From the IMG/VR virus record IMGVR_UViG_3300030047_000427, positions 1 through 20,070 of that record: a stretch of 20,070 nt of DNA, one strand, 5' to 3'. This DNA is from a virus. A model generated the notes under the pieces. It worked only from the letters and a program-made list of their open reading frames with translations. It was not told where the DNA came from and searched no databases. Below, piece by piece: positions 2,804-18,944 of the stretch (positions are counted from its first letter, which is position 1; each line of letters opens with the position of its first letter). The position numbers were made by a program, and so were the translations under genes.

Positions 2804-3163
2804 TTAATAAGGGATGGCAAAAGTGTAGGCTGCGTTGCCTCCTAAAGCCGCAAAAGAACCTGATGAATCCAAATTTAAAACCATCTGACCGTATGAAGTT
2901 TGTTTCAAACCTTCTCCATAATTTCCGGTGTACTCAATAGAAGCCCCTCCAGCACCTTCTTTTTTTGCCTGACGTTCCCGGGTGATCGTGATCATATGGG
3001 CAGTCAACCATCGTTCAATTTCTTTCAAAATATCGGTCACCTCAGTTCCCAAAACTTTATTCACCATCACGTTGGCACTACTTATATAAACATCAACTTG
3101 CGGGTCAGTCAGTGAACTTTCATCCAATATTGCTTTTACTTCTGTTGCGGTAACTCTTACCAT
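2804..3163 (-). CDS. Head-tail connector, gp6/gp15-like
   Basis: A 119-residue protein of the gp6-like connector type: a helical N-terminus typical of these adaptors (TATEVKAILDESSLTDPQVDVYISSANVMVNKVLG), a long helix with WLTAHMITITRERQAKKEGAGG, and a flexible C-terminus with the usual YGEGLKQTSYGQMVLNLD segment. It would form the ring below the portal that receives the head closure protein. It begins with ATG at 3163, five bases after the sulfotransferase-like gene, so the modification cassette is wedged between the capsid gene and this connector. The family assignment is quite secure from motif pattern and position. Confidence 0.82.
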   Translation of the reverse strand: MVRVTATEVKAILDESSLTDPQVDVYISSANVMVNKVLGTEVTDILKEIERWLTAHMITITRERQAKKEGAGGASIEYTGNYGEGLKQTSYGQMVLNLDSSGSFAALGGNAAYTFAIPY

Positions 3164-3167
3164 GATA

Positions 3168-3830
3168 TTATTTTTTATGAATTAATTCAGTTAATGTTTG
3201 TTCAATTTTCGGATTCCATGATAAACCTAAATCAGTACATAAAGATTGCAGCTGAGAAAAATCATTTTCCAATACCCGGTCAGGCCAGACAAAAATCATA
3301 TTCAGTCCGTGGGATTTCATTTTTACCCATTCAGCTTCATATTTGTGAATTAACCACATCCACCCTTCCTCCTCCGTAGTCACCCCCACTAATTTTCGTA
3401 TCTCTGGATTTTTGAATGTACACATCCAATTTGTTTTCACACAAGAATTTACAATTTCAGTGGGCTTTCTTCGTACCACAATCCATACCGCATCAGGATA
3501 CAGATCCGTATATAATTTCCAAAGAGGGGTTAATAATGAACTTTTAAACATCCAAGGATTTTCATCAAATTCATTTCTCCCCTGAACCAACAAATTATAT
3601 TCCACTGAAGCTTTCAAATCCATGTTAACCTTATCCACTTCAGGAAATAAATTTTCACTATACGTGGATACAAGGTCTTCACATAAATGTTTTAATCGAA
3701 AATTTTCATACATCCCCGTCATGCTACCTGTCCACACCCCTCCGGTCATACTCAATGCCCGGGCTATAAGGGATGCCCCGCTTCTTTCCACTCCTGTTAC
3801 AAATATTGGATTATTTTTATGGAGGTTCAT
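3168..3830 (-). CDS. Sulfotransferase-like protein
   Basis: A 220-residue protein. The start is taken as the ATG at 3830, whose first base is the last base of the upstream TGA (a TGATG overlap), rather than the TTG one codon earlier. Residues 9-21 (IFVTGVERSGASL) match the 5'-phosphosulfate-binding loop of PAPS-dependent sulfotransferases, although the usual T/S-T-S end is A-S here. Residues 117-129 (WIVVRRKPTEIVNS) match the 3'-phosphate-binding motif R-x(6-8)-S. The rest has the family's helical lid and an acidic-aromatic segment EEEGWMWLIHKYEAEW. It would move sulfate from PAPS to a hydroxyl or amine of a glycan, but the substrate is unknown. Coupling to the glycosyltransferase gene suggests that the acceptor is made there. 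Confidence 0.75.
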   Translation of the reverse strand: MNLHKNNPIFVTGVERSGASLIARALSMTGGVWTGSMTGMYENFRLKHLCEDLVSTYSENLFPEVDKVNMDLKASVEYNLLVQGRNEFDENPWMFKSSLLTPLWKLYTDLYPDAVWIVVRRKPTEIVNSCVKTNWMCTFKNPEIRKLVGVTTEEEGWMWLIHKYEAEWVKMKSHGLNMIFVWPDRVLENDFSQLQSLCTDLGLSWNPKIEQTLTELIHKK

Positions 3831-5848
3831 CAAATATAATTTAGATAGTCTTTGCCAATCATTTTTTTCAAAATTTGCAATCTTTCAAATACCGTGGTTT
3901 CAGGCTTTTTAAACGATCTTATGTTATGCCCTGAACCTATACCAGCACGACCGGGCAACCCCTTTATTCCCACAGCCAAATCCCCTCCCTCAAACAAATT
4001 TACAACCCCAGAAGGAAGGGAACGAAAGAAATCCAAATCAATAAACTTTTGGTTTTGAATAGCCCTTTCAAATGCGGGTAAAGCTGAGGTTTTAAAAGCT
4101 GTTTGGAATAAGCTGGAATGTTTATGATTTTGATTTCGATAACCATCCTTTATTTCCACATTAAAATAATAGGTTAAAGCTTCCCCGGCAACTTGAAATC
4201 CCTTTAACTTTTCCCGCATCACATTCAGGTATTCAGGGCTGTACCAATCATCATCCTCAATTATAAATATTTCGGATACTTCATGCTTTTTAACTTCGTT
4301 AATAGCAGCTTTCAAATTTCGGCTTTGGGTGTTCTGCCCCGCCCTCCATACCGGGGCTGGGTTCACATGAATGATATCCCAATTGTCTTTAAAACCCTGT
4401 TTAATACTTTCTGTTGTTTTTGGTACACAGTCATCCACTATCACCCAAAGTACTTTACCCGGATATGTTTGGGCCTTCATGTATTTAGCACAAAGTTCAA
4501 TTTGTTTTTCCCTTCCCCCGGTTGGAGTGATTAAAGCAATAGTGTCTTTTGGGATTTCCTTTTTTGGTAAAACTTTCAGCCAACTATGATCTTGAAAAGT
4601 AAAATCAGGAGCAGTAAAAACTTCATCCACAGCTTGGATAACCCCCAGATGAGGAGCTTCCACATAATCATGACCCCCAATAAAACAACGGGATTTAGGG
4701 ATATAATTTTCAATGTCTTTTTTTACTTGTTCATAAGTATGGTTGCCATCAATATACACAAAATCAACTTCCGATATAAACTTCAAGGCATTGTCTGAAA
4801 AATCTCTTATCACTTCAATGTTTTCAAATTCTTTTATCCTGTTTTTAAAAGCTTGATATACAAGAGTCATGGAAGCTTCGTGGCAAGTAGGGTCTTTGGG
4901 ATCGTACATATCAATAAAGGGATCCACGGCAATAACTTTTTTGAAATGTTTTGCAAACAATACCGTACTTTCCCCTTGGTAACTTCCAATTTCGACCATC
5001 GTCATTTCAGAAGTATCCTGAGTTTCATTAATTTTAGCAATCAAGGCTTTTATACCCCTGATTCCATTGGTATCTCTCATCTGTACGACTTGTTTTGCTT
5101 TTAATCCCATTTGAATGTTTATTATTTTTGTGTTAACCTCCACAGCTTCCTTAACCATGGAATGATATTGACTCATATTGTAATGGATAGGGCTGTCACA
5201 CCTACCTTTCTTGACTTTCAATTCAAAATCTTCAACTGACTTACAATAATAATGATTGATCCAAGCCCTTTGTTGAACAGGGGTTTCCACGAAAGCCCCC
5301 AAAACAGTATTTCCAAATACATCAATAATTTTCCCGGTTTTAAACTTACAAAAATGAGGATGGTGCCACCCTCTTACCTTTTCAGGCCTGACAATACTCT
5401 TGATATGCTTATTTACTTCTGCCTTTACCGTAAGACAAGATGTAATACCAGAAACAAGCCCCTTTTCACGTGGATTCCCTGCGCCAAAGTTAATCCAGTT
5501 TAATCCTATTCCAGATTCTGTTATAGTGGCTAAAAAGGGCTTGATTTCACCTTCCTCAATAACTATAAATTCATCATCATCAATAAAAGCGATCCAATCA
5601 CACTTTGGAGTTTGTTTTTTGTTTTGTTTTTCAATACAATTGTTGTAAACCGGAAGTTGTTGGATAAGCCCTTTCCATTGGTATATGATCACCCCTGTTT
5701 TATCCTTTACCGTGTCGACAATAGGAATTTCAGAATCATTATCATACAAAAAGAAATAATTAACACCAATCAAACGGTGCCAAACTAACCACTCATTTAA
5801 GTAAGCTGCTGGAGTATCTTTCATAATGGAACATATCCCTACAACCAT
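3830..5848 (-). CDS. Three-domain glycosyltransferase-methyltransferase-glycosyltransferase
   Basis: A 672-residue protein. Residues 1 to about 235 resemble GT92/DUF23-like GT-A transferases: GICSIMKDTPAAYLNEWLVWH, DNDS at 36-39, a metal-binding D-D-D-E-F at 90-94 and a late H-x-Y region (WINHYYCKS). Residues about 265-425 form a class I SAM methyltransferase of the Methyltransf_24 type: VEIGSYQGES at 285-294, VDP at 308-310 and YIDGNHTYEQV at 365-375. Residues about 435-672 look like a second GT-A domain, with ALITPTGGREKQIELC and an acidic IIEDDDW at 529-535. The protein would build and methylate a short glycan or decorate a glycan carrier. The ATG at 5848 overlaps the upstream gene by 10 bp. 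Domain limits are approximate and donor sugars are unknown. Confidence 0.8.
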   Translation of the reverse strand: MVVGICSIMKDTPAAYLNEWLVWHRLIGVNYFFLYDNDSEIPIVDTVKDKTGVIIYQWKGLIQQLPVYNNCIEKQNKKQTPKCDWIAFIDDDEFIVIEEGEIKPFLATITESGIGLNWINFGAGNPREKGLVSGITSCLTVKAEVNKHIKSIVRPEKVRGWHHPHFCKFKTGKIIDVFGNTVLGAFVETPVQQRAWINHYYCKSVEDFELKVKKGRCDSPIHYNMSQYHSMVKEAVEVNTKIINIQMGLKAKQVVQMRDTNGIRGIKALIAKINETQDTSEMTMVEIGSYQGESTVLFAKHFKKVIAVDPFIDMYDPKDPTCHEASMTLVYQAFKNRIKEFENIEVIRDFSDNALKFISEVDFVYIDGNHTYEQVKKDIENYIPKSRCFIGGHDYVEAPHLGVIQAVDEVFTAPDFTFQDHSWLKVLPKKEIPKDTIALITPTGGREKQIELCAKYMKAQTYPGKVLWVIVDDCVPKTTESIKQGFKDNWDIIHVNPAPVWRAGQNTQSRNLKAAINEVKKHEVSEIFIIEDDDWYSPEYLNVMREKLKGFQVAGEALTYYFNVEIKDGYRNQNHKHSSLFQTAFKTSALPAFERAIQNQKFIDLDFFRSLPSGVVNLFEGGDLAVGIKGLPGRAGIGSGHNIRSFKKPETTVFERLQILKKMIGKDYLNYI

Positions 5849-6528
5849 GATTTGACTTCCTTTAAAGTGACTTTCTTGAAATCCGGGATAGCTGATTCAG
5901 GACAAACATTGAATATTTCCACCCCCAATCTTTTAGCATCAGCGGCAATAAATGGAAACCCTTGTAAATGGCGATTGAAAGGAAGTGCCCGGGCTTTTAC
6001 TCCTGCGGTACGATATTCAGAATGCCAATGTTGGGCATCCGCTTTTAGCTTCATATCAAACCCCAATAAAAATATCCTTTTAGCCCCCGCATGAACAGCC
6101 ACACTTATTGCTGCTGCCCCACTATTCTGATTCCAAGCAACCATATCCGGTCTGGTACTTATTCCACGGGGTTTGCTTCTTTCCCTTAACATGTATTTAA
6201 TCCACTCTATACGATCTGTGACCGGGGCTGAACTTACTTTTATGGCAGGATGTACTCTTAACAATTTTGCATGCTCATCCAAAAAACTACCATCACCGAA
6301 AAATATCATATCCATCCAATCCCCAATCAAGTAAGCTATATTGATTCCAATCACGTGCTTATCATGTAGGAATGATAAATGTTCGGAATATGAAGAAGGA
6401 GGGGAAAGCTTGGATGTGACACTTTGCACAACATCAGCAGGTATCTCAAACTGTTCAATAACAGATGGCCCCCCACCTAATATCCAAACATCCCCCCCAT
6501 TCCATATCTTTGGTACGCTCCACTTCAT
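5839..6528 (-). CDS. DUF115/MptE-like (norphogenetic-type) protein, possibly a glycosyltransferase
   Basis: A 229-residue Rossmann-like protein. VWILGGGPSV at 14-23 is a nucleotide-binding glycine loop. HVIGINIAYLIGDWMDMIFFGDGSF at about 58-82 and NSGAAAISVAVHAGAKRIFLLGFDM at 135-159 are the other conserved blocks of the DUF115/6-hydroxymethylpterin pyrophosphokinase MptE-like group, which shares features with GT42 sialyltransferases. Phage members are often called norphogenetic protein. A CMP-sugar or other nucleotide-sugar reaction is plausible here because the gene is coupled (TAATG overlap at 6528, 10-bp overlap at 5848) to glycosyltransferase genes. The exact reaction cannot be read from sequence. 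Confidence 0.68.
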   Translation of the reverse strand: MKWSVPKIWNGGDVWILGGGPSVIEQFEIPADVVQSVTSKLSPPSSYSEHLSFLHDKHVIGINIAYLIGDWMDMIFFGDGSFLDEHAKLLRVHPAIKVSSAPVTDRIEWIKYMLRERSKPRGISTRPDMVAWNQNSGAAAISVAVHAGAKRIFLLGFDMKLKADAQHWHSEYRTAGVKARALPFNRHLQGFPFIAADAKRLGVEIFNVCPESAIPDFKKVTLKEVKSWL

Positions 6529-6929
6529 TAATTACAAGCTTTTAGCATTTGTTCAGCCTCTTCTTTTTCAAGGCTTTCTTCAGTGATCTGTTTGCCGGTA
6601 TTGCTCACAATATGAAACATAGGGTTCTTTTGTGTTGAATTTTCTTCATCTTTTTTCAATGAAAAAACTTCTTTGAACCCTTCTGGCTTCTGAAAATTCA
6701 CATTTGGTTCTTCCTGCTTCTCAGCCGGGGTAACTACAATCAAAGCATTCAAAAAAGCTTTTGGAATGTCTGAAGGTAAAGCAGTGAAAGTTTCATTTGG
6801 TTTAATAATCCGGTTCTTCAGATTAAATGAACCCCCTCCAATTTTACGATATGTTACCAATTGGGATTCTTCAGCCCCTTTGGATACATTTACAATCGGA
6901 GTTACTGATGGTTTTGTTTTTCTTTCCAT
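6528..6929 (-). CDS. Hypothetical protein following the capsid gene
   Basis: A 133-residue protein I do not recognise. Its first half looks folded and beta-rich (QLVTYRKIGGGSFNLKNRII, then PNETFTALPSDIPKAFLNALIVV). Its second half is polar and charged, with Glu/Lys-rich linkers and a C-terminal helix (EESLEKEEAEQMLKAC). It sits 43 bp after the major capsid gene and its TAA overlaps the ATG of the DUF115-like gene. It could be a small virion protein, for example the acceptor or anchor for the modification enzymes that follow, or a head-associated accessory protein. No catalytic motif is visible and no strong ribosome binding site precedes the ATG. Confidence 0.6.
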   Translation of the reverse strand: MERKTKPSVTPIVNVSKGAEESQLVTYRKIGGGSFNLKNRIIKPNETFTALPSDIPKAFLNALIVVTPAEKQEEPNVNFQKPEGFKEVFSLKKDEENSTQKNPMFHIVSNTGKQITEESLEKEEAEQMLKACN

Positions 6930-6972: not shown

Positions 6973-8076
6973 TTAAGCTAAATGAGCAATTCCACACTGA
7001 CCTTCCTGATCACTTCTGATCTGAGGAACCTGAATTGTCATGATTTTATGCTTGTCAATCAGGTTTCCTTCAGTACCCCATTGGAGATTCTGAATGCCCA
7101 TACCTTTTACAAGGCGAATGGTGCTTGGGGTCATCTGAACCAAAAGGACATTGTCAGCTTCCAAAGTATCATTCACTTTGATAGCCTTAATGTTTTCAAT
7201 TTTCATGATACGTTCCCGGATGGTGTTGTCGTTTTTCAACGTACTATAATCATCATCCAATATCATATCATAAGCAGTTGGTACATACAGGTAATATGGC
7301 CCATATTGATGTTTAGCAACCAAAGCTGCTTTCATACGGTTCACATCATCCACGATCTGTTTGCCGGTTTTGGCTGAATCATTCCATTCCAGATTCAAAG
7401 ATACCAAATTGCGATCAGGATAGTTCACATAACTGTAAATGGTGTTTCTGCTGTTACTGTCCTTTTCCCCGAAAGAATAATCAGTATCAGTGAACAGCAT
7501 ATTTTCCAATTGTTCATAAACAGATCGGGTTGCAAATTCAGCATCAGTGGTGTCCAGAGGATTTCCCATGTTCCGACTTAAAGCCAAATCACGTGCGCTG
7601 ATTTCATAATCGGCATGAACAATAGGGATAGGCAGATAGTGATATTTGTAATTTGGGCGATCATTCAATCCCCGGTTCACTCCATCCATAGTCATTACCG
7701 CTTTGATGCTTCCGCTCACAGTATGCCATTCCAATACAGTGGTTCCCATACCGTTGGCAAGGTTATACACCAATCCAAGGCTTTCCAAATCCTGAATACC
7801 ACCTAAACGATAACGGGCTACAGAAAGCAAAGCATCATCCAAGGTTTTCCACTCATCCCTTCTCAGAGTTCCATTGGCCACCATCTGGGTATGATAACTT
7901 TTAGGGTCTTTAACATCACCCCCCATATATACTGAAATATAGGGTCTGCCATCGGTATGAATGAATGGGCGCATTGCCCCAATATTCAAATTTCCGTTTG
8001 CTTGGAACTTAGATGCGACTGCACCCTGAACCATTCCATTCTGACCAATCAGGTCAACTGTTACATTTGGATCCAT
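6973..8076 (-). CDS. Major capsid protein, encapsulin/Linocin-M18-like HK97 fold
   Basis: A 367-residue protein. The C-terminal block, from IRLVKGMGIQNLQWGTEGN to the end IRSDQEGQCGIAHLA, matches the pattern of encapsulin/Linocin-M18-related phage capsid proteins. The centre has the long helix with ARSVYEQLENMLFTDTD and the P-domain-like YGPYYLYVPTAYDMIL segment. It would assemble into the icosahedral shell. It follows the protease/scaffold and decoration genes. An AAAGGAG ribosome binding site at 8088-8094 lies 11 bp before the ATG at 8076, consistent with very high expression. No N-terminal delta domain of HK97 type is evident, in keeping with a separate scaffold. Confidence 0.88.
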   Translation of the reverse strand: MDPNVTVDLIGQNGMVQGAVASKFQANGNLNIGAMRPFIHTDGRPYISVYMGGDVKDPKSYHTQMVANGTLRRDEWKTLDDALLSVARYRLGGIQDLESLGLVYNLANGMGTTVLEWHTVSGSIKAVMTMDGVNRGLNDRPNYKYHYLPIPIVHADYEISARDLALSRNMGNPLDTTDAEFATRSVYEQLENMLFTDTDYSFGEKDSNSRNTIYSYVNYPDRNLVSLNLEWNDSAKTGKQIVDDVNRMKAALVAKHQYGPYYLYVPTAYDMILDDDYSTLKNDNTIRERIMKIENIKAIKVNDTLEADNVLLVQMTPSTIRLVKGMGIQNLQWGTEGNLIDKHKIMTIQVPQIRSDQEGQCGIAHLA

Positions 8077-10141: not shown

Positions 10142-13100
10142 TTATATTTTTGTTAGTATCCCTTGTTTTTCCAATTTGGCTGAAAGAGCTTTACCGGCAG
10201 GAGAATAAACCCCAGAACCTTGTATGGAATAGCCTTCAGGCAATAATGAACGGGCTTTTTTATTCATAAAAGTGGCAATCCCTTTCCCTCTGAATTTATC
10301 ATCCACATAAATATTTGTCAATGATAAAACTTTAGTGTCTGAATTATAGCTTCCAGTCAATTTAGCATTTCCTGCTGAAAATATCCGTTCTGTATTATCT
10401 TTTTTCCAAACTCCTTGAATATTAAAATCCAAATCCATATTAAATCTTGCATTAACAATCTCATTTGGATTTTCATTAATTATTTTTAAAGTAGGTTTAG
10501 CCCTTTCAAACTTAACTACATCAGAAACAATATCCAATCTATCATCCTCAAATTTTAAATTTTTAATGATATTCCAATCTTCAACTAAAGAAGTTTTGGA
10601 AGTTATTTTTTCTTCAACTACCTTTTCAACAGGAGGAACTTCAACAACTGTAGCATCCGGCAAAGTAGGAAGTGCAATACAACGACAATTATGTACAACC
10701 ATTCCTTTGGCTATATATGATTCATCCTCTTCCACACTCAAATTATATAAAGGTCTTTGTCTTTTCAGCTTCCAACGTTTAATACTTTCAATGGATAAAG
10801 CTGTTGTTTGGTACTGACCTGTATGATTGTAAACTACTCTGATTAATTCTGTTCCTATCTCTTCAATACATGAATTAATCTTTGCCCCGGTATAACGTAA
10901 AACAAACCAACCTTCATTTTCAATTTCCTTTTGACGGGCTTCATCTTTTGCTTTATCTTTATGCCAATATTCTCCATCACATTCAATAGCTATCTTCAAA
11001 GCCGGGATAACAAAATCAACCCTGTATTTCAATATCGGATATTGACTCATGTATTCTATTCCTAAACGATCTAACAAATCAGCCATCTGTTGCTCAATCC
11101 ACGTCATTTTACCTTCCCAACGCATGATAGCTAACTTGTTATTCAATCTATTCTTTGAATCAGCTAAATAGGATATTTGCATTGATGCCTGAGCTTTCTT
11201 TACAACCTCTGGATCATTCATTGGATTATTTGCTTTCATACGTTTTGATGTACGTTCCCTTAATTCAGGAGTATGTGAACGCTCATTATTTTTAGCATGA
11301 AAAGCTTCATCCATCCAAGTTCCATATGTACCGTCTTTTACCATTGCCCGGGTTTTATTATTTGCCGCTTTCGTGGTAGCAAATCTATCCCGTTCACCTG
11401 ATTTGTATTGACGTATATTTGAAAGGCTGTTCTTTTTTGATACATTTTCACGATGCTTTGGATCAGCCCATTGTTTATCGGTTATGTCTTTACTCAAACA
11501 AGTACGTGAACAATATGTCCTGTAATAGGGTACTAATTCATTGCAACGTTTACATTCATTAGCCAAATACATTATTGAATCATTAACAGTACATTTCCCG
11601 GCTTCTTTCCATCTTGAAAAAGTATTACCTTTGGTTGATACTAATACCAAATGATTGGATGTCAATGATACCGTTTGCCCTCCTACAAATTTGAATGTTA
11701 TTACTTCAGTACCTTCTTGTCCTTTTGATCTTGGTAAAGCATAAACCTTTTTAAATCTCTTTTTATGCGTCAATACTTTATCCCCAACAACAACATTTCC
11801 AATGGGTTTCCAACCTTCAGAAGTATATACAGGGGTTTGAGGATCAATAAAACATTGCGGGTGAACTGGAATCAAGCCCTCAGCCTCAGTCAAAGTATAA
11901 ATCTTGCCCTGAAGCCCTGCACAGATACTACAAACACGCCCATCCCCGGCTGTTGTAAATTCTGCTTCCACGTTTACCCCCTCAGCCCCCCAGTTACTGT
12001 ATTCCTGTATGGTAGCTGCATGATGGGTTCTTATCACTTCCGTGCGGGCCAATATCTCTGCCCTGCGCTTGGCTGGCATAAAGTACTCAACCTGATTGCC
12101 CGACTTGTTGGTGTACTTTACTGCCTGACCTAAAGTACCTGCCCCGCTTCCGTCAATAGCATGTATCATTTTTTTAGCTAGGAAACTTGGCCCATCCCCA
12201 TCCGCAAGCCCCTGCGCTAATATACGACTGATTTGACTGTCCATTGCTGTCGTTATACCCTTTAAATCGGTATAAGTGCGACTATACACCAATCCCAATC
12301 GGTCAATGTGAAAAGGGGTTGTCATAGACATTTCTATGCCTCCTGTTTGTTCCATACCGGGTATGTTTTTGAATCCCGCTTTTTTGAGTTCACTCCGTGC
12401 CCGTATGACTCCCCTTTTATAACTATCTTTGATATATACGTTTGTCCATGCTTGATTTGCCCCTGCCCCCAATTGATTGATCTTGGTTGTTTCCAATAAA
12501 CCTTTATCAACCTGACCATTCAGCCATTCCATAAATTGTTCAACCTTCTCCTGACTGGTACTGTATTGAAAAGCTTTATGTCCTATTTCCTGATTTACTT
12601 GTAATTCATTGCGGATTAAAGCGGTGTTGATTCTTTTCAAATCCTTTATCTTGATTTTTCCTACCAATATAGGTTCATCTTTTCCCAACCATTTTTCTTT
12701 TCCTTGCTTATCTTTGTAATAATAAAAAGGATGCCGATAATAGTGATTTGAATTTATAGACCATTCACAAGTTCCTACTTTTCCCCAATGATTTGCTCTA
12801 CGGTACAAAACCCCGCTTTTAATTTTGTAAGCAGAACCTGAATCTGATTTGAATATATCTACATCAAGCCCATCCCATTCTGATTTTGGGACTACTGAAA
12901 AACTCCCTTTGGTGGAAAGAAAATAATCACGTTTAGATACCTTTGGCATTGCCGTAGTTATATCCTGAAACCCTGCTTTCTTCAAATCGCCTTCATCCAA
13001 CTTTTGCTGACTCCAGTATGACCGTTTACTTACAAATTCACCTAACCCCTTTTTTTCTGTTTTTTTCTTTGCAGTACGATGACCTTTGATCCCACTTCCC

Positions 13101-13363
13101 GGGCCACCATTGACTTGAAATATACATACATTTTCAATAATATCTTCTGCAAACGTAATTAATGAAGTTGGCTTTACCAATCCAAAACAATCCTCCTCTA
13201 CCACTGCCGTTTTAATCAACTTAACCAAATCATCAAACCTCTTATTTAAGGCTTTCCCAAAAGCATTCCTCAACCCGGTTGTATGAGTGGGATCATATGC
13301 TTTTAGATTTTGCTGCTGCTTAGCATTAACGATTAAATAACTATGGTTACAGGTTTCACACAT
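10142..13363 (-). CDS. MuF-like head morphogenesis protein with inserted domain, intein and C-terminal GNAT-like domain
   Basis: The precursor is 1073 residues if started at ATG 13363; a GTG at 13381 would add six residues and overlap the GH16 gene. Numbers here are from the ATG. The motif GGPGSGIKGH at 86-95 is common near phage head protein processing regions. Residues about 96-249 form an unrecognised inserted domain. Residues about 250-505 are the MuF region, with RAEILARTEVIRTHHAA, then CSICAGLQGKIYTLTEAEGL and HPQ. An intein occupies 504-892. The extein resumes with CRCIALP, restoring the conserved HPxCRC motif. Residues about 925-1073 end in FRGKGIATFMNKKA, resembling a GNAT acyl-CoA loop. 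MuF proteins sit inside the head near the portal. After splicing the product would be 684 residues. Confidence 0.82.
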   Translation of the reverse strand: MCETCNHSYLIVNAKQQQNLKAYDPTHTTGLRNAFGKALNKRFDDLVKLIKTAVVEEDCFGLVKPTSLITFAEDIIENVCIFQVNGGPGSGIKGHRTAKKKTEKKGLGEFVSKRSYWSQQKLDEGDLKKAGFQDITTAMPKVSKRDYFLSTKGSFSVVPKSEWDGLDVDIFKSDSGSAYKIKSGVLYRRANHWGKVGTCEWSINSNHYYRHPFYYYKDKQGKEKWLGKDEPILVGKIKIKDLKRINTALIRNELQVNQEIGHKAFQYSTSQEKVEQFMEWLNGQVDKGLLETTKINQLGAGANQAWTNVYIKDSYKRGVIRARSELKKAGFKNIPGMEQTGGIEMSMTTPFHIDRLGLVYSRTYTDLKGITTAMDSQISRILAQGLADGDGPSFLAKKMIHAIDGSGAGTLGQAVKYTNKSGNQVEYFMPAKRRAEILARTEVIRTHHAATIQEYSNWGAEGVNVEAEFTTAGDGRVCSICAGLQGKIYTLTEAEGLIPVHPQCFIDPQTPVYTSEGWKPIGNVVVGDKVLTHKKRFKKVYALPRSKGQEGTEVITFKFVGGQTVSLTSNHLVLVSTKGNTFSRWKEAGKCTVNDSIMYLANECKRCNELVPYYRTYCSRTCLSKDITDKQWADPKHRENVSKKNSLSNIRQYKSGERDRFATTKAANNKTRAMVKDGTYGTWMDEAFHAKNNERSHTPELRERTSKRMKANNPMNDPEVVKKAQASMQISYLADSKNRLNNKLAIMRWEGKMTWIEQQMADLLDRLGIEYMSQYPILKYRVDFVIPALKIAIECDGEYWHKDKAKDEARQKEIENEGWFVLRYTGAKINSCIEEIGTELIRVVYNHTGQYQTTALSIESIKRWKLKRQRPLYNLSVEEDESYIAKGMVVHNCRCIALPTLPDATVVEVPPVEKVVEEKITSKTSLVEDWNIIKNLKFEDDRLDIVSDVVKFERAKPTLKIINENPNEIVNARFNMDLDFNIQGVWKKDNTERIFSAGNAKLTGSYNSDTKVLSLTNIYVDDKFRGKGIATFMNKKARSLLPEGYSIQGSGVYSPAGKALSAKLEKQGILTKI
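10688..11854 (-). mobile_element. Intein with zinc-knuckle, NUMOD3-like and DUF559/Vsr-like homing nuclease
   Basis: The 389-residue element begins with Cys (CFIDPQTPVYTSEGWKPI, block A) and ends VVHN before Cys+1. Block B is LTSNHLVLV (TxxH) and block F is YNLSVEEDESYIA. The junction HPQ|C...N|CRC restores an intact MuF motif, so the insertion is precise. Between the splicing halves lie a CxxC...C...C cluster (residues 604-622 of the host protein), an NNPMNDPEVVKKA stretch like NUMOD3, and a nuclease domain with YRVDF, IECDGEYWH and GWFVLRYTG, the restriction-like fold of DUF559/Vsr proteins. All expected splicing residues are present, including the penultimate His. It would copy itself into intein-free alleles by double-strand cutting. 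Confidence 0.92.
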
Positions 13364-13367
13364 ATCC

Positions 13368-14111
13368 TTATTTATACACACGCATTGATTTAACGGTAAA
13401 ATTTGTACGATCTACTTTTTGTGCCCCTCCGGCATTGTTTATTATCACATGGTTTTCATCCTTGGATACAAACTCAGGATCAGAGGAAGTAAACAAAGCT
13501 GTAACAATTCCATCAGTATAAAATCGGTAACCATTGGGGAGAAACTCAACTGCAAATTCATGAAACTGGTTATCTGCTTTGAAACCTTTGAACCCTGACT
13601 TGAATTTACGATATGACTCATCATCCGTATATCCCCAATGAATGTTTACTTCAGTTTTGTGATTAATAACTTCCATTATATCAATCTCTGGGGTGATTGC
13701 TTTCTTTGTATGATTTGGTACTTCCCTGTCCTTTTTTAACAGCCATATTGCAGGCCAACTGTCCGGAGTATTACATACAAATACCCAAACCCCCATTGAA
13801 TGAGAAAACTTATCCGCACTGTGAATCATGCCAGATGTCCATAAGGAAAGACCATCCCTGTTGCTTTTTCTATATTGTACATCTCTATAACAAGCAATAT
13901 TCAATCCTTCTTCTGTTATGTTGACAGTATCTTTCGATAGATATACAGGATTATCATTATAAAATGAATCATCTACTACAAAAAAGTTATCCAAATTTTT
14001 AAAATTATCTGAAAACACAAGATTTCTATTAGTAAAAGTAATTTTCTTACAATACTCTTTGAAGTATCGAAATCTTACCTTGTAAAATATATTTAATAAA
14101 TATTGTATCAT
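13368..14111 (-). CDS. Glycoside hydrolase family 16-like enzyme
   Basis: A 247-residue protein with the concanavalin-like beta-sandwich pattern of GH16. LVFSDNF at 31-37 is the usual first strand and TSGMIHSADKFSHSMGVWVF at 92-111 the substrate-cleft strand. SWPAIWLL at 118-125 precedes the catalytic motif E142-I-D144-I-M-E147. HWGYTDDE and FHEFAVEFLPNGYRFYTDG match the late strands. GH16 enzymes cut beta-1,3 or beta-1,4 linkages in laminarin, lichenan, agar, carrageenan and related glycans; which one cannot be told. No signal peptide is clear, though the N-terminus (MIQYLLNIFYKVRF) is hydrophobic. It lies inside the head gene cluster, an unusual place for a depolymerase. Confidence 0.85.
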   Translation of the reverse strand: MIQYLLNIFYKVRFRYFKEYCKKITFTNRNLVFSDNFKNLDNFFVVDDSFYNDNPVYLSKDTVNITEEGLNIACYRDVQYRKSNRDGLSLWTSGMIHSADKFSHSMGVWVFVCNTPDSWPAIWLLKKDREVPNHTKKAITPEIDIMEVINHKTEVNIHWGYTDDESYRKFKSGFKGFKADNQFHEFAVEFLPNGYRFYTDGIVTALFTSSDPEFVSKDENHVIINNAGGAQKVDRTNFTVKSMRVYK

Positions 14112-18410: not shown

Positions 18411-18944
18411 ATGAAAACTGAAAATGGTTATTATTTAGATGAAAATAACAATCGTTGGGATTGCGATTTATATACTGCGGAACAGGCTGAAAATAATAGT
18501 AAAAGTTTGACAAAGTGTTCCGATTGTTCCGGTTGTTCCGGTTGTTTCGGTTGTTCCGGTTGTTTTGATTGTTCCGGTTGTTCCGGTTGTTTTGATTGTT
18601 CCGATTGTTCCGGTTGTTCCGGTTGTTTCGGTTGTTCCGGTTGTTTCGGTTGTTCCGGTTGTTTTGATTGTTCCGGTTGTTCCGGTTGTTCCCGTTGTTC
18701 CGGTTGTTCCGATTATAAACACAACCCCCAAAGATACATAAGCCCAAAATTAGGAAATAGAAATTCACAAACTCAAATATATTGGACTTCGTCAATGGAT
18801 GTTCAAGTGGTTTGTGGCTGCTTTAAAGGGGATTTGGGGGATTTTGAAAATGCTATCCAAACTACCCATAAAAATACAGTTCATTTAGCTCCTTACCTAA
18901 AATTGATTGAATTAGCACATTACATGATTGATTTTCAATTTTAA
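18411..18944 (+). CDS. Cysteine-triplet repeat protein of unknown function
   Basis: A 177-residue protein in three parts. Residues 1-35 are a polar N-terminal domain ([20 protein letters not shown]). Residues 36-101 are 22 uninterrupted triplets of Cys followed by Ser or Phe and then Gly, Asp or Arg. Residues 102-177 are a C-terminal domain with [39 protein letters not shown] and a final helix. Cys at every third residue gives overlapping CxxC motifs, consistent with metal binding or a disulfide-rich or solenoid-like rod. I recall similar Cys-rich repeat proteins in phages and bacteria but know no function for them. It is the first gene of the rightward cluster and lies five bases before the next gene. 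Confidence 0.75.
18516..18713 (+). repeat. 9-bp tandem repeat, 22 units
   Basis: The unit TGTTCCGGT and its variants (TGTTTCGGT, TGTTTTGAT, TGTTCCGAT, TGTTCCCGT) follow in perfect 9-bp phase for 198 bp inside the cysteine-repeat gene. TGT is invariant. Gain or loss of units would keep the frame. Confidence 0.95.

Follow-up and report, generated by a model that had tools for sequence, protein, structure and literature searches.

Why does a phage carry genes for glycan and sulfate modification between the gene of its major capsid protein (MCP) and that of its head-tail connector? The question is raised by a four-gene cassette in the virus record IMGVR_UViG_3300030047_000427 (20,070 bp); the window analyzed here is the whole of this record, positions 1 to 20,070. 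The genes encode, in order, a small conserved protein (small133), an MptE-like protein, a three-domain protein with glycosyltransferase and methyltransferase domains, and a sulfotransferase. A first-pass annotation, made from the letters of the DNA, had described them as a glycan and sulfate modification cassette expressed with the virion genes. The present analysis indicates that the cassette is probably a phage-encoded island for virion glycosylation in the cytoplasm, with a starter enzyme resembling the Maf flagellin glycosyltransferases, a variable set of extension genes and, often, a sulfate modification.

The arrangement was surveyed in viral contigs with two anchors. MCP-anchored scans, in which the cassette was not used as the query, gave 24 and then 80 loci (the best 80 of 394 relatives), and the MptE-anchored scan took the best 80 of 193 relatives. 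The loci were mapped with profiles. The best matches were taken first, so the proportions given here describe the closer relatives; the contigs are metagenomic, and E-values are relative to the candidates scanned. A common plan was found: the MCP gene, small133, the MptE-like gene, zero to nine variable genes, usually a sulfotransferase gene, and the connector gene. The MCP-to-connector interval was complete for 62 distinct MCPs, and in 59 of these small133 lay directly after the MCP gene. The MptE-like gene was also present in 59 and followed small133 directly in 57, and a sulfotransferase gene was present in 51, being the final gene in 46. The length of the interval ranged from 540 to 8742 bp (median, 5297). 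Two minimal forms were seen: in L178 small133 and the MptE-like gene, and in L024 small133 and a sulfotransferase gene, are alone between the MCP and the connector. In the MptE-anchored scan, the MCP gene and small133 were directly upstream of the MptE-like gene in all 79 loci with enough upstream sequence. The latter two genes overlapped or abutted in 63 of these 79 loci, and 98% of the interval was co-directional coding sequence.

The recurrence of this arrangement is not due to chance. It bears out a glycan and sulfate cassette that belongs to the late head operon and whose genes stay together; close homologues of the genes were not found scattered over random phage contexts. In L028, L029 and Brevundimonas phage MaInes (L112, with an MCP 34% identical), which are more distantly related, only one small gene stands at the place of the cassette, indicating that the cassette marks this phage group. 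It had been called an insertion, which is apt relative to these three phages but not within the group, where the cassette is the standard arrangement. Related loci were also detected by a bacterial-genome scan in three metagenome-assembled genomes (Bacteroidetes, Crocinitomicaceae and Spirochaetota), in which the binning may be wrong; none was found in 394 other genomes of the phylum of the Bacteroidetes genome.

The bookends of the cassette are conserved, and its middle is exchangeable. Loci were compared in pairs, in three bands of MCP identity that begin at 45%. The MptE-like gene was shared by 100% of the pairs, the sulfotransferase gene by 97 to 98% (pairs in which both loci carry one) and small133 by 84 to 98%. 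The middle genes were shared by only 9 to 19%, compared with 84 to 100% for the bookends, and 261 middle genes fell into 65 clusters, with 40 singletons. The commonest Pfam families in 240 sampled middle proteins were GT2, GT11, FkbM and other methyltransferases, GDP-mannose dehydratase and epimerases, GT47 and Gly_transf_sug. In the window, the middle consists of the three-domain protein, with a GT92/GT2_4-like region at residues 2 to 160, Methyltransf_24 at 285 to 395 and GT2 at 440 to 572. Its Pfam matches (cutoffs in parentheses) scored 50.1 bits (26.3) for Methyltransf_24, 49.6 (27.5) for Glyco_tranf_2_4, 34.5 (23) for GT92 and 26.2 (23.3) for GT2. Relative L168 has the same domain order; elsewhere among the relatives the parts occur as individual genes or have been replaced. 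In 11 phage records of 58 to 72 kb, every detected GT2 and sulfotransferase gene lay within the cassette.

The near-invariant MptE-like protein is a single domain of 229 amino acids. It had been annotated as DUF115/MptE-like. The match to the Pfam MptE-like family PF01973 did not reach the cutoff (16.9 bits versus 34.6), so that the protein would act like a member of this family without being classified in it, but it matched PHROG 4603 ("alpha-2,3-sialyltransferase") at 5e-29. Sequence searches with the enzyme otherwise returned only a weak MptE match. Its AlphaFold model is of high confidence (mean predicted local distance difference test [pLDDT] score, 94.1; predicted template modeling [pTM] score, 0.91). 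The best structural match of the model was the Maf flagellin glycosyltransferase 5mu5 (Z 15.0 over 191 residues at 4.1 Å). It was followed by the GT42 enzymes Cst-I (2p2v, Z 12.6) and CstII (1ro7, Z 12.1; Foldseek E 9.6e-6); archaeal MptE matched at Z 10.6, and unrelated chains scored at most 4.4. The motifs GGGPS, NSG, GFD and HWH are conserved across 73 relatives. As modeled, the enzyme shares the Maf/GT42 fold over its full domain, and sugar transfer to Ser/Thr is its putative activity. In L067, L081 and L182, an MptE-like domain lies inside very long open reading frames (ORFs; 948 to 1108 amino acids), fused to further domains.

The protein small133 has a small beta fold as its N-domain (about residues 22 to 68), a flexible linker rich in P, E and K, and a beta-beta-alpha C-domain (about 89 to 133); its AlphaFold model has a mean pLDDT of 84.9 and a pTM of 0.42. 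Besides the stand-alone copy behind the MCP gene, the N-domain (about 55 residues) is also fused to other cassette proteins: to a Maf-like enzyme (L016:6070-7542 and L019:3084-5375), to a Capsule_synth-like protein (L171:11189-13306 and its near copy L192:11514-13634) and to a protein without family assignment (L018:10540-11487 and L191:11181-12125). Since the N-domain is fused to several cassette enzymes, a role as a docking module would fit small133 better than a role as acceptor. The first-pass annotation had taken the product of the small first gene as a possible acceptor, and the analysis did not sustain this. It is nevertheless the best of the alternatives, although a doubtful one, and a special case of virion glycosylation: small133 would be a displayed head-surface glycoprotein, with the Maf-like enzyme as its dedicated transferase. 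The two genes are obligate neighbors with probable translational coupling (the 63 overlapping or abutting loci), and tandem small133 copies precede the Maf-like gene in several loci, e.g., L010, L012 and L055. However, Ser and Thr together make up only about 8 to 13% of every part of small133, linker included, and the extra N-domain copies on other proteins are better explained by docking.

No consistent relatives of small133 were found in Pfam, PHROGs, PDB or phage records, and a profile comparison with the single small gene of the cassette-less L112 and L028 was negative. Fold searches returned weak small-domain matches only. The most suggestive of these, YqbF (2hjq, Z 2.9) and phage proteins of about 50 amino acids, were not significant. 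VP882 gp10, whose gene lies at the corresponding place between those for head protein and head closure, had no clear motif match to small133.

A pathway for virion glycosylation can be proposed from these observations. The cassette genes form one co-directional unit with the MCP gene and would be expressed late together with it. As Maf does on flagellin, the Maf/GT42-fold enzyme may place the first sugar on Ser/Thr of a capsid-associated protein (the MCP, the decoration protein or small133), as its fold and position suggest. Given its invariant position, its coupling and its fusions, small133 may serve for docking: associated with the capsid, it would keep the Maf-like enzyme at the nascent head, and the fused N-domain copies may hold other cassette enzymes there. 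The variable middle genes would then extend and methylate the glycan into a phage-specific structure, here with GT92, GT2 and methyltransferase domains and elsewhere with GT11, GT2, FkbM methyltransferases and sugar-nucleotide epimerases. Finally, the sulfotransferase would cap the glycan with sulfate from host 3'-phosphoadenosine-5'-phosphosulfate (PAPS) or sulfate the protein directly. The resulting coat would be phage-specific and often sulfated. Its variation could help the phage to evade defenses or to adhere to matrix or capsule, or could add stability.

The cassette could instead act late in infection on the host surface, altering lipopolysaccharide, capsule or other envelope glycans, e.g., to block superinfection or to help progeny release, and its place beside the MCP gene would merely provide late expression. 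Many middle genes do resemble envelope-polysaccharide genes (GT2, GT11, GT9, Caps_synth and epimerases), and peripheral glycosyltransferases could use lipid-linked acceptors of the host. By a simple hydropathy measure, which is a crude predictor, none of 437 distinct cassette proteins had at least two predicted membrane segments, and flippases, polyprenol transferases and GtrC-like proteins were accordingly not seen; the same measure gave seven segments for GtrC, two for GtrB and one for GtrA of phage P22. Genes for surface modification also need not keep one fixed point beside the MCP gene, as these do in 59 of 62 loci, and small133 and its fusions would be left unexplained. A host-surface target is unlikely. 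The first-pass annotation had named a virion protein and a late host-surface glycan as the two candidate targets; the former is favored because the place beside the MCP gene is invariant, the near-invariant enzyme has a Maf-like fold and no multipass membrane proteins were predicted. A virion-bound acceptor in the cytoplasm is favored also because all detected GT2 and sulfotransferase genes of the 11 long records lie in the cassette.

The sulfotransferase matched Pfam Sulfotransfer_3 with 33.9 bits (cutoff, 27). Together with the matches of the three-domain protein, this confirmed the glycosyltransferase-methyltransferase-glycosyltransferase and sulfotransferase-like identities of the two genes given in the first-pass annotation. 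RSG, R122 and S130 are invariant in the sulfotransferases of nine relatives; RSG and R...S are PAPS-site residues in the sulfotransferase family. A phage adenosine-5'-phosphosulfate (APS) kinase was not found in the 11 long records, indicating that PAPS would come from the host. Sulfation, which the annotation had also proposed, would be common (51 of the 62 loci carry the gene) but not universal. A sulfotransferase query gave no match in the phage records, and the function of phage sulfotransferases was stated to be unclear in a 2023 paper (PMC10580990). The solved structures nearest to the family profile are the tyrosylprotein sulfotransferases TPST2 (8e-7) and TPST1 (7e-6). They are consistent with an enzyme that mainly sulfates tyrosines of a capsid protein, largely independently of sugars, as is the L024 interval. 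Yet Sulfotransfer_3 is a broad family in which TPST matches do not fix the acceptor, and most loci pair the sulfotransferase with glycan genes, which makes this explanation improbable. Hypermodification of phage DNA bases is the least credible alternative by far: DNA-acting phage glycosyltransferases are known (Pyle 2024, as cited in PMC12619734), but no enzyme of the thymidylate synthase family, which includes some phage base hydroxymethylases, was found in the 11 long records, and the cassette consists of Maf/GT42, GT92, GT2, GT11 and sulfotransferase types located in the head operon.

Several observations weigh against cytoplasmic virion glycosylation. Host enzymes could flip phage-made glycans outward, so surface targets are not excluded by the lack of membrane proteins. 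The matched fold also takes in MptE, which is a pterin diphosphokinase, and the Maf-like enzyme had no significant sequence match to any solved glycosyltransferase; its link to Maf is one of fold alone. Flagellins receive nonulosonic acids on Ser/Thr from Maf enzymes (PMC11339370). NeuB and nonulosonic acid synthesis were not found in the 11 long phage records, and thus the genes of the phages do not imply a nonulosonic donor. As noted above, small133 is not rich in Ser/Thr, and L024 has retained small133 and the sulfotransferase but has no Maf-like gene. A comparison with 50,697 phage records turned up no member of the group, the best MCP match there being about 34% identical, and the group is known from metagenomic contigs alone.

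The cassette and its flanks are listed in Table 1.

Table 1. Positions of the cassette genes and flanking genes in the window
Feature	Position	Strand	Basis
small133, conserved two-domain protein	6528..6929	-	ORF; directly downstream of MCP
MptE/DUF115-like, Maf/GT42-fold putative protein O-glycosyltransferase	5839..6528	-	PHROG 4603, AlphaFold model and fold matches, conserved motifs
Three-domain GT92/GT2_4-like, Methyltransf_24, GT2 protein	3830..5848	-	Pfam
Sulfotransfer_3 family sulfotransferase, final cassette gene	3168..3830	-	Pfam
MCP (upstream flank)	6973..8076	-	DUF6260 1.4e-20 (Pfam); PHROG 771 virion structural protein 2.5e-21; PHROG 264 major head protein 9.3e-7
DUF4054 head-tail connector/adaptor (downstream flank)	2804..3163	-	Pfam DUF4054 4.4e-8; PHROG 302 virion structural protein; PHROG 132 head-tail adaptor

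The minus-strand head operon runs in the order small and large terminase, portal, GH16-like, Mu gpF-like (with an intein), DUF2213, decoration protein, MCP, the four cassette genes, DUF4054 connector, and neck and tail genes. The names given to the terminase subunits, the portal and DUF2213 are presumed, from gene order and from reading of the sequences. The genes small133 and MptE-like share TAATG at 6528, the MptE-like and three-domain genes overlap by 10 bp (5839 to 5848), and the three-domain and sulfotransferase genes share TGATG. The four ORFs, their coordinates and all three overlaps agreed with the first-pass annotation; the only correction is the sulfotransferase start, an ATG at 3830, where the program-made ORF list begins at the TTG at 3833. 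No terminator-like sites were found between genes in the window.

Other features of the window were also recorded. Between the connector gene and the next neck gene, about 220 bp (2583 to 2803) hold no clear gene; the near-identical contig L004, whose connector is 96.6% identical, is shorter there. A GH16-like (laminarinase-type) gene at 13368 to 14111 is part of the head operon, flanked by the portal region and gpF, and its profile matched solely contigs of the same phage. The Mu gpF-like head gene (10142 to 13381) contains its intein with a DUF559/Vsr-type endonuclease domain (DUF559, 7.9e-12); the Pfam Intein_splicing match (6.8e-8) was below its cutoff, and relatives L020 and L022 have homologous insertions. 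On the plus strand, an ORF at 18411 to 18944 encodes a long Cys/Gly/Ser repeat and had no Pfam match; the opposite strand is also open and encodes an Asn/Arg repeat.

The cassette resembles several known systems in part. In mycobacteriophages (Che8 and relatives), glycans have been reported on capsid and tail tube subunits and proposed to act as a shield (Freeman et al. 2023, Cell Host Microbe, as cited in PMC11256854 and PMC12619734). As in the cassette, the glycosyltransferases are phage encoded. In the F1 mycobacteriophage Maravista they lie near the 3' end of the genome (PMC11256854), whereas the cassette is fixed between MCP and connector. The cassette, known here from genes alone, further differs in its Maf-like enzyme and small133, its frequent sulfotransferase and the replacement of its middle between phages. 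With Maf flagellin systems it shares the transferase fold (Z 15.0 to 5mu5), soluble enzymes and, as proposed, an abundant self-assembling structural protein as the target. In contrast to these systems, it has a short single-domain enzyme without a detectable sequence match, no NeuB in the long records, a capsid rather than a flagellin locus, and a set of variable transferases capped by a sulfotransferase. Cst-I and CstII have the fold in common with the MptE-like enzyme, but there was no significant sequence match to those chains. In FlmG of Caulobacter, a binding domain fused to a glycosyltransferase directs it to a structural protein (PMC7591256). The small133 N-domain fusions may likewise give a transferase its target by docking, although the folds of FlmG (tetratricopeptide repeat plus GT-B) are different. 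O-antigen conversion by P22 gtrABC is also a phage-encoded glycan modification, but it uses membrane proteins and adjoins the integrase, whereas the cassette is soluble and in the head operon. In Caulobacter phage CcrSC (Ccr group, Bertelyvirus; L113:8037-12523), a distant MptE-like gene (29% identity) precedes a cluster that includes a methyltransferase gene as well as unannotated genes. This cluster lies directly after tail genes rather than after the MCP and has no annotated sulfotransferase; it is perhaps a tail-modification relative.

A literature search limited to open-license papers did not turn up this arrangement. Phage enzymes are already known to glycosylate capsids, mainly in a few mycobacteriophages; here such glycosylation would have one fixed capsid-side place across a large group of uncultured tailed phages, where the core of the locus is invariant and its interior varies. 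The locus ties phage sulfotransferases and virion glycosylation to this one place beside the capsid gene. Tentatively, the system may generate coat diversity: a fixed small133 capsid-docking adaptor and the Maf-like starter would recruit exchangeable glycan genes, and each phage would make sulfated capsid glycans of its own in the cytoplasm, comparable to the glycan serotypes of bacteria. The cassette would be a compact enzyme set for cytoplasmic protein glycosylation. It also suggests that a docking protein directs transferases to capsids, and would allow a direct test for sulfated capsid glycans specific to each phage.

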